The position numbers and the translations under genes were made by a program. A DNA stretch of 64,000 bases from Deltaproteobacteria bacterium (GTDB taxonomy: Bacteria; Myxococcota_A; UBA9160; PR03): the NCBI GenBank assembly GCA_035063765.1, contig JAPSFT010000008.1, forward strand, positions 62,001-126,000, given 5' to 3'. Positions 19,107 through 22,092 of this stretch are shown one piece after another (position 1 is the first letter of the stretch; the number at the start of each line of letters is the position of its first letter). The notes under the pieces were generated by a model that made no database searches, was not told where the DNA came from, and saw only the letters and a list, made by a program, of their open reading frames with translations.

Positions 19107-20414
<1,308 letters not shown>

Positions 20415-20870
20415 GGCGCGCGAGCATACCGCGCTCGGGAGGGCATGCGGCCGGGAGGAACGGAAAGCGGCACTGCCGCCCGGAGCTGCATGCCGAGGAC
20501 ACAGCGGAAAAGACCGTAGAACCAGCTGTTGGAGCCGGATCTGCCGCCTGCCGCCCGGTTCTTCCACAGCTCCTGGTGCCTCCTGCGGCTGCGCCAGGCG
20601 AAGATCGTCTCTCGCGTCGATCCGGAGGAAACCCGCCCTGATTCCAGGCAGTTGGCTTCACGCGAGCCGCGCCGGGGCGAGCTGGCACGGATCGTGCTCC
20701 TCCGAGGAGCCGTGGAGACGTTCTGGATGTCTCCGGAGAACGGCAACGGGCGCGCTCGTTCTCCGGAGGACGCGTCTCGGGGACTCCGGGGATAGCACCC
20801 CAAAAGGCGCTTTCCCCCAAGAAATCGGCACCCCGCCTTTCCCGGAGTCCCCGGGGCACCGGAACGACAG
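20415..20870. other. Structured intergenic region, candidate non-coding RNA
   Basis: No credible protein lies here, but several long inverted repeats do. Hairpin one, GGCATGC at 20442-20448 pairs 20488-20494. Hairpin two, GGAGAC (20714-20719) pairs 20729-20734. Hairpin three has twelve bases (20731-20742 with 20757-20768) and shares four bases with hairpin two, so they exclude one another. Hairpin four has a 13-base outer stem (20778-20790 with 20841-20853) with a nested seven-base stem (20803-20809 with 20834-20840) directly against it. The terminator at 20871 follows. The strand is uncertain; it could be a plus-strand RNA or the leader of pepP. Confidence 0.5.
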
Positions 20871-20907
20871 AGCCCCCCGGCCGAGTGTGCCGGGGGGCTT
20901 CTTGTTT
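20871..20907 (+). terminator. Strong intrinsic terminator, best in plus direction
   Basis: An 11-base perfect stem (AGCCCCCCGGC at 20871-20881, paired with 20889-20899) has a seven-base loop and is followed on the plus strand by TCTTGTTT. On the minus strand it lies 36 bases after the rnd stop but has only a weak T stretch. It therefore either ends a plus-strand RNA from the region before or ends rnd transcription, or both. Confidence 0.8.
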
Positions 20908-20934
20908 CCGGGCCGTGCGCTCGGCGCGGCGGGC

Positions 20935-22092
20935 TCAGTCGCCCTCTTCCTCGTCCCCGCGCAGCGCGTCGGCGATCTCGCGCCCGAACTCGCGCACGAA
21001 CCAGCCCTTCAGCTCCGGGATCTCCGCCACCTCGGCGGCCCGGGCGGGATTCCTCCACGCGATCGCCTCGAGGCCGGTGTTCGGGCACAGGACCCCCGGG
21101 TCGAGGCCCAGCTCCCTGGCGCGCCCGGTGCGCCAGCGCTTGAGCCGCTCGACGCGCTTCTCGGTGCGGCGGTCCATGCGCCGCCGCCCGCTCCCCTCGA
21201 CGCGCCGCAAGGGACCGTGCGGCGAGCCGGCGCCCTTCGTCACCGCCGCCAGGATCTCCTTGCCGAGCCGGCGCAGGATCAGCTCGGTGATGCCCTTGAT
21301 CGAGCCGAGCTCCGCGGTGTCGCGCGGCTGGCGCTGCGCGATCTCGAGCAGCGTACGGTTGCCGAGCACCTTGAAGGGCGGGCGGTCGACCTCGCGCGCA
21401 CGCGCGTCGCGCAGCAGGTAGAGCTCGCGCAGGATCGAGAGCTGAACGGGCGGCAGGCCCTTGGCGCCCTTGATGCGCAGGTAGCCCGCGCCGTCGAACT
21501 CGCGCGGCGGCCAGGTACGGGCCACCAGCGTCTCGAACTCCTCCTTCGCCCAGGCGAGCCGGCCCTTCTCCTCGAGCTGTGCCTCGAGCTTGTCGGCGAG
21601 CTGGACCAGGTGCGCGACGTCGGAGGCGGCGTAGAGGAGCTGGCTCTCGCGCAGCGGGCGCGTCGACCAGTCGGAGCGCTGCTCGTCCTTCGGGAGCTTC
21701 ACGTTGAAGTGTCGCTCGGAGAGCGCGGCCAGGCCGACGGCGGGATAGCCGAGCAGCTGGGCCGACACCATCGTGTCGAAGAGGTGCGCGAACTCGAAGC
21801 CGCAGTCGCGCTTGAGCACGTAGAGGTCGTACTCGGCGGCGTGGAAGATCTTGCGCACCTTCCGGGCGGCGAAGACCGGCCCGAGCGGCGCCAGCTCCGA
21901 GGGGCCTCCGAGCGCCAGGGGATCGACCAGGAAGATCCCCTCGCTCGATGCGATCTGTACCAGGCAGGTCTTGTCGTAGTAGTGGTAGAAGCTGTCGGCC
22001 TCGGTATCGACCGCGATCACCTTCTCGCGAAGCAGGTCCTTGGCCAGGGCCCGCAGCTCGGCCTCGCGCTCGATGCGCACGTAGTCCGCCAA
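20935..22092 (-). CDS. rnd: Ribonuclease D
   Basis: The 385-residue enzyme is a 3'-5' exoribonuclease of the DEDDy class that trims tRNA and other RNA. The acidic residues are seen in VIAVDTEADSFYHYYDKT (DTEAD), HAAEYDLYVLKRDCG, and LLYAASDVAHLVQLAD (with Tyr before Asp). An HRDC domain follows, from about residue 220 (LGNRTLLEIAQRQP). The C-terminal part (basic) is somewhat unusual. It is divergent from the FIST gene, 152 bases away, where promoters must lie. Confidence 0.94.
   Translation of the reverse strand: MADYVRIEREAELRALAKDLLREKVIAVDTEADSFYHYYDKTCLVQIASSEGIFLVDPLALGGPSELAPLGPVFAARKVRKIFHAAEYDLYVLKRDCGFEFAHLFDTMVSAQLLGYPAVGLAALSERHFNVKLPKDEQRSDWSTRPLRESQLLYAASDVAHLVQLADKLEAQLEEKGRLAWAKEEFETLVARTWPPREFDGAGYLRIKGAKGLPPVQLSILRELYLLRDARAREVDRPPFKVLGNRTLLEIAQRQPRDTAELGSIKGITELILRRLGKEILAAVTKGAGSPHGPLRRVEGSGRRRMDRRTEKRVERLKRWRTGRARELGLDPGVLCPNTGLEAIAWRNPARAAEVAEIPELKGWFVREFGREIADALRGDEEEGD

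Follow-up and report, generated by a model that had tools for sequence, protein, structure and literature searches.

The 517 bases without a conserved gene between pepP and rnd (20418–20934) in the 64-kb window, by which we mean the whole stretch of DNA analyzed here, are best read as one transcription unit; we put the probability at roughly 0.88 that it yields a σ54-controlled, Hfq-independent, trans-acting sRNA, here predicted, whose synthesis depends on an activator. Comparison of homologous loci shows the gene itself and its strand, the linkage to rnd, the promoter with its enhancers, and, within the RNA, helices P1 and P2. The family is real and apparently undescribed, although the kind of sRNA it belongs to is known. 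The Rfam scan proposed in the initial annotation returned no matches anywhere in the 64-kb window with Rfam 15, the highest sub-threshold score reaching 17.4 bits where 112 is the cut-off, and no sRNA of this order was found described in the open-access literature, which omits most subscription journals.

The initial annotation had described a gene-free, strongly structured stretch with long perfect stems, a pair of competing hairpins and a plus-strand intrinsic terminator with a T stretch, set between two minus-strand genes, and each of these features is recovered here (Table 1). The perfect stems comprise one of 12 bp (20731–20742/20757–20768), one of 13 bp (20778–20790/20841–20853) and that of the terminator, and a hairpin formed by GGAGAC (20714–20719) and GTCTCC (20729–20734) overlaps the bases of 20731–20742. 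The fold of 20709–20907 reaches −114.8 kcal/mol, whereas dinucleotide-shuffled versions come to −88.3 ± 5.0 (z −5.29; 0 of 200 as low), and that of 20690–20915 gives a z of −5.80. Taken alone, the terminator scan of the window is not significant (one found, 0.5 expected); the terminator is credible because it is conserved, a strong one being present in 46 of 61 loci, with a simple terminator scan failing in 15. The predicted RNA measures 174–213 nt in 42 of the 46 loci with a strong terminator. No plus-strand gene follows the terminator. Among the homologous loci, rnd is convergent and the first conserved gene past the RNA 3′ end in 61/62, and in the remaining locus no conserved gene was found between the RNA 3′ end and the contig end. 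The distance from the model end to rnd is 29–325 nt in 59 of 61 loci, and 723 and 1861 nt in the other two. Short tandem repeats, of GGCTTGGCGG type or GTAAGACT type, lie between the RNA 3′ end and rnd in L134 and L145.

Table 1. Coordinates of the predicted sRNA gene, its control region and its neighbors within the window
Feature	Position	Strand	Evidence or remark
pepP-like Xaa-Pro aminopeptidase	19107–20417	−	AMP_N/Peptidase_M24 (Pfam); divergent neighbor
Putative distal enhancer (UAS) dyad ACTGCCGCCCGGAGCTGCATG	20472–20492		15.5 bits, family PWM
Putative proximal enhancer (UAS) dyad GGTGCCTCCTGCGGCTGCGCC	20575–20595		18.6 bits; 103 bp from distal site
Predicted σ54 −24/−12 promoter TGGCACGGATCGTGCT	20683–20698	+	Equivalent element in 62/62 homologous loci
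Predicted sRNA transcript, ~199 nt	20709–20907	+	Inferred to begin 12 nt past the −12 GC and to stop at the T tract
P1 5′ strand CGTTCTGG	20719–20726	+	Pairs with 20859–20866; 6/6 modeled pairs change on both sides
P2 hairpin, 12-bp core, loop GGGCGCGC at 20748–20755	20731–20768	+	11/11 modeled pairs change on both sides
P3 helix 20778–20790/20841–20853 around C-rich core	20778–20853	+	Enclosing helix of at least 6 bp in 41/41 loci tested
Conserved core AAGGCG-CTTTCCCCC...GGCACCC-CGCCTT (P4 stem, C-rich loop)	20804–20839	+	Nearly invariant
P1 3′ strand CCGGAACG	20859–20866	+	Pairs with 20719–20726; covariation
Intrinsic terminator	20870–20907	+	Stem 20870–20900, then CTTGTTT; scan and conservation
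rnd, RNase D	20935–22092	−	DNA_pol_A_exo1 and HRDC (Pfam); convergent neighbor; next conserved gene in 61/62 loci

The predicted σ54 element stands 15–45 nt before the start of the covariance model in all 62 loci, and so lies outside the model. Its strict form, TGGCAYN6TGC, occurs in 49 of 61 loci, and a loose form was met in 30 of 12026 random 30-nt windows of the same loci (0.25%). The loci also share an upstream palindrome close to GGTGCCGCCTNAGGCGGCACC with half-sites TGC-N11-GCA, a half-site spacing that is that of NtrC. Scored with the family PWM, the two dyads are the only sites of at least 13 bits in the 64-kb window. Under two-fold cross-validation, a UAS of at least 11 bits was recovered in 60/61 loci and two such sites in 47/61, compared with 3.45/61 and 0.05/61 for shuffled upstream regions taken through the same training and testing. 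Both sites reach at least 9 bits in 52/61 loci, at spacings of 90–140 bp that group near 91, 100, 110, 120 and 131 bp, in steps of one helical turn (period 10.0, resultant 0.58); this phasing is given without a p-value because the loci are related. Elsewhere in the order, matches to the enhancer-plus-promoter pattern were no commoner than those to a reversed control, and no wider regulon was found.

Within the RNA, helices P1 and P2 are backed by compensatory change. The covariance model, comprising P1, P2 and P4, was built from a 27-sequence alignment in which 88.9% of cells are paired and 15 of the 22 pairs change on both sides. In 61 distinct rows these values rise to 91.4% and 19/22, with a covariation score of 0.499 vs 0.194 when shuffled and at most 0.131 when slid, although these rows were aligned by the covariance model and hence lean towards it. 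The initial annotation had named a lack of base-pair covariation in relatives as one result that would refute its reading; covariation is present, and its support is carried by P1 and P2 (17/17 pairs). P4 hardly varies, two-sided changes being confined to two of its five pairs and to a single cell in each, and is mostly too invariant for a covariation test; in the window sequence, the minimum-energy fold gives 20804–20839 other partners and P4 is not formed. As MAFFT could not align P3, support for this helix was sought by folding against shuffled flanks, using 41 of the 61 loci (in the other 20 a motif was unmatched or a flank was short), which gave a mean of 11.5 enclosing pairs vs 4.4 with the flanks shuffled.

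Near-invariance marks two elements, the C-rich core AAGGCGCUUUCCCCC and the P2 loop GGGCGCG. The loop is found in 59/61 loci, in all 59 enclosed by a hairpin of 7 bp or more, and is absent in L132 and L038. Divergent members (e.g. L191, L187 and L136) retain P2 and have the C-rich core missing or replaced, which makes P2 the most persistent part of the RNA; the C-rich domain, missing in some members, cannot be essential everywhere. In six loci of genus g33 (L177, L178, L180, L181, L187 and L188) and in L191, the RNA is rebuilt, with the P2 loop ACGGGCGCGUUC kept, the C-rich core often lost, and the promoter up to ~730 nt from rnd. L191 resembles a minimal version consisting of promoter, P2 and terminator.

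The family is confined to one order in our samples. In a DNA search of 97 relatives, many genomes belonging to the order matched the 3′ half, and 20 named stretches with the core pattern come mostly from MAGs labeled Myxococcota, Deltaproteobacteria or Proteobacteria, isolate UBA9160 included; in GTDB the order carries the name of this MAG. The core pattern had no matches in viral contigs. At E 0.01 the covariance model matches 60 of the order's 79 genomes, and in a phylum sample of 377 genomes at E 0.1 it again matched 60, all inside the order and none among the 298 outside it; both scans used Infernal's stricter filters, at the cost of some weak matches. There is one match per genome except in G065, where an equal-scoring locus stands on two contigs (L140, L141), reflecting either a recent duplication or a redundant assembly. 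The model missed 19 genomes of the order, and an rnd locus was recovered from 17 of them (G050 and G012 had no rnd match). Seven of these 17, six from genus g33 and one from g26 and none ever in the training set, carry the σ54 element and enhancer sites beyond the 3′ end of rnd and on the other strand, the sequence of L187 being too short for a second site. The other ten, mainly of genera g19 and g20, have no promoter or enhancers beside rnd. Adding the 60 model matches to the seven promoter/UAS loci places the system in ~67/79 genomes of the order; some genera seem either to have lost it or never to have acquired it. In the neighboring family f12, none of 10 outgroup genomes (G088 left out) has the element at rnd, one of them offering only 458 bases of flank.

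The locus combines several hallmarks of a σ54-dependent sRNA gene: a predicted −24/−12 element upstream of the RNA, putative enhancer sites, and the presence of RpoN, which was detected in 73/79 order genomes, the RNA's own genome included. Hfq was detected in 0/79 order genomes by a search that was positive in 5/14 control genomes. A candidate activator of the sRNA is suggested by a histidine kinase and NtrC-type response regulator (bEBP) pair encoded in the same genome (L149, G000:C1 ~49.5–52.5 kb). The σ54 consensus TGGCACGTAACGTGCT stands just before the regulator, and a single weak copy of the dyad (9.3 bits) lies 194 bp upstream of the regulator; this similar promoter and dyad are the sole link between the pair and the sRNA, and the regulator is possibly an autoregulated activator. 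Further σ54 consensus sites were noted along the way. One (L150, G000:C4:44519–44534, minus strand) has a dyad of 12.6 bits at 155 bp upstream and is preceded by an ORF resembling a response regulator, and the start of its downstream gene resembles, as we judge from the first residues, a FliA/WhiG-type sigma factor. Two others (L154, L155) precede genes whose first residues we take to resemble flagellar rod or hook proteins.

Of the two identities offered by the initial annotation, a small RNA or a switch-like leader, the former is borne out by the homologs, the covariation, the σ54 promoter with its enhancers, and the terminator. If the plus strand carried an attenuator or riboswitch-like leader that alternates between two folds, this would account for the terminator and for the competition between hairpins 20714–20734 and 20731–20768, but the former hairpin is not kept within the family: in L010–L012 its 3′ half reads GATCGGCACC or GATCGGCGCC, with no pairing to GGAGAC. 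Moreover, with rnd convergent in 61/62 loci there is nothing for a leader to lead into, so that synteny largely refutes this reading, to which we give next to no weight. The same tail-to-tail arrangement, with its short distance to rnd (29–325 nt from the model end in 59 loci), is what a bidirectional terminator or an antisense RNA mainly controlling rnd would produce; such a role leaves the σ54 promoter, the enhancers, the covarying P1 and P2 and the invariant loops unexplained, and we consider it improbable. A housekeeping RNA missed by Rfam would most plausibly be 6S RNA, which is of similar length and likewise single-copy: the RNA described here occurs once per genome, at ~190 nt and order-wide, and 6S is rarely recognized in the order (1/79 above the cut-off). 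Yet the structure is different, 6S RNA (RF00013) gives no match to the window RNA, and G002 holds both in separate places, 6S above the cut-off on contig C39 and the sRNA on C191. No Rfam family fits, and the architecture and the σ54 promoter differ from those of housekeeping RNAs, making such an identity extremely improbable. A REP/BIME repeat, which the inverted repeats might suggest, was rejected on copy number: the RNA occurs once in its own genome, where the second-best match covers only 22 nt at E 0.02.

The sRNA reading has close precedents. Qrr, NrsZ, CrcZ and GlmY are σ54-dependent trans-acting sRNAs of Proteobacteria. Like them, the RNA is specified by an intergenic gene with a σ54 promoter under bEBP control, both predicted here; unlike them, it has no Rfam match, lacks Hfq in its setting, and is preceded by two dyads ~100 bp apart. 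A nearer comparison is Pxr, an sRNA of Myxococcus xanthus (PMC5684412, PMC5568312, PMC10217877, PMC11928866). Pxr blocks fruiting-body development, has a predicted σ54 promoter, requires the NtrC-like PxrR for its synthesis, is ~108 nt long with three hairpins, lies beside pxrR/pxrK, and is reported from Cystobacterineae only (PMC5684412, PMC5568312); hfq is reported absent from M. xanthus (PMC5684412), and Pxr-XL is processed by RNase D, described there as the first such evidence for an sRNA (PMC10217877).

A distant relationship to Pxr would fit several of these features, and we regard it as conceivable though doubtful. Both RNAs have a predicted σ54 promoter and an upstream enhancer region, a C-rich stretch recurs in the first hairpin of Pxr, Hfq was not found in the order just as hfq is reported missing from M. 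xanthus (PMC5684412), and the processing of Pxr-XL by RNase D (PMC10217877) has a counterpart here in the adjacency of rnd, which is suggestive only. Ancestral Pxr positions 13–33 (SL1) share 12 of 15 letters with the core, the Pxr parts being taken from printed primers only. That similarity is equaled by 132/2000 shuffles of the window RNA and 81/2000 of a rough typed consensus (4–7%), and is not significant; in the Pxr parts compared, the 3′ part shows no similarity to the window RNA. The RNA is also ~199 nt long with P1 closing P2 and P3/P4, and sits beside rnd in 61/62 loci, whereas Pxr differs in length, hairpin number, locus and its reported Cystobacterineae-only range (PMC5684412, PMC5568312). 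In the phylum sample the covariance model finds nothing outside the order, but that sample also yielded no genuine pxr locus for comparison: primer-derived patterns gave only scattered two-mismatch matches in 12 and 3 of the 377 genomes. Several features are therefore shared, but because size, fold and locus differ and the similarity is not significant, the RNA is not filed as Pxr.

From this arrangement we infer transcription, an activator, trans-acting pairing with targets and any role of RNase D. In the proposed mechanism of the σ54-controlled sRNA, an NtrC-type activator (bEBP) would bind the two phased dyads ~100 bp apart and, through looping, contact σ54 RNA polymerase at 20683–20698, with transcription beginning near 20709. 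The ~199-nt transcript would adopt a multibranched fold in which P1 closes off P2 and P3/P4, and end at its own terminator (20870–20907). The loop segments GGGCGCG (P2) and CUUUCCCCC (P4) would in all likelihood base-pair to target mRNAs independently of Hfq, such that the signal read by the activator becomes post-transcriptional control. A more speculative extension, which we rate as unlikely but worth stating, is that the RNA is an order-wide, Hfq-independent counterpart, in uncultured Myxococcota, of the Pxr life-cycle switch, with a dedicated NtrC-type activator and RNase D maturation, its GGGCGCG and C-rich loops gating starvation or a lifestyle transition; if so, Pxr would be one branch of an older σ54/RNase D sRNA circuit.

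Overall, these data add a well-supported predicted sRNA family, complete with its promoter and enhancers, its structure and a constant neighbor in the genome, to an order that lacks a recognizable Hfq and is known here only from metagenome assemblies. Its interest lies in the combination of a complete σ54 control region, a fixed partnership with rnd, and an Hfq-less setting. The constant pairing with rnd makes the one-off report of RNase D sRNA processing in M. xanthus testable, and should this RNA, too, be matured by RNase D, the enzyme would have a general role in processing sRNAs across the phylum.
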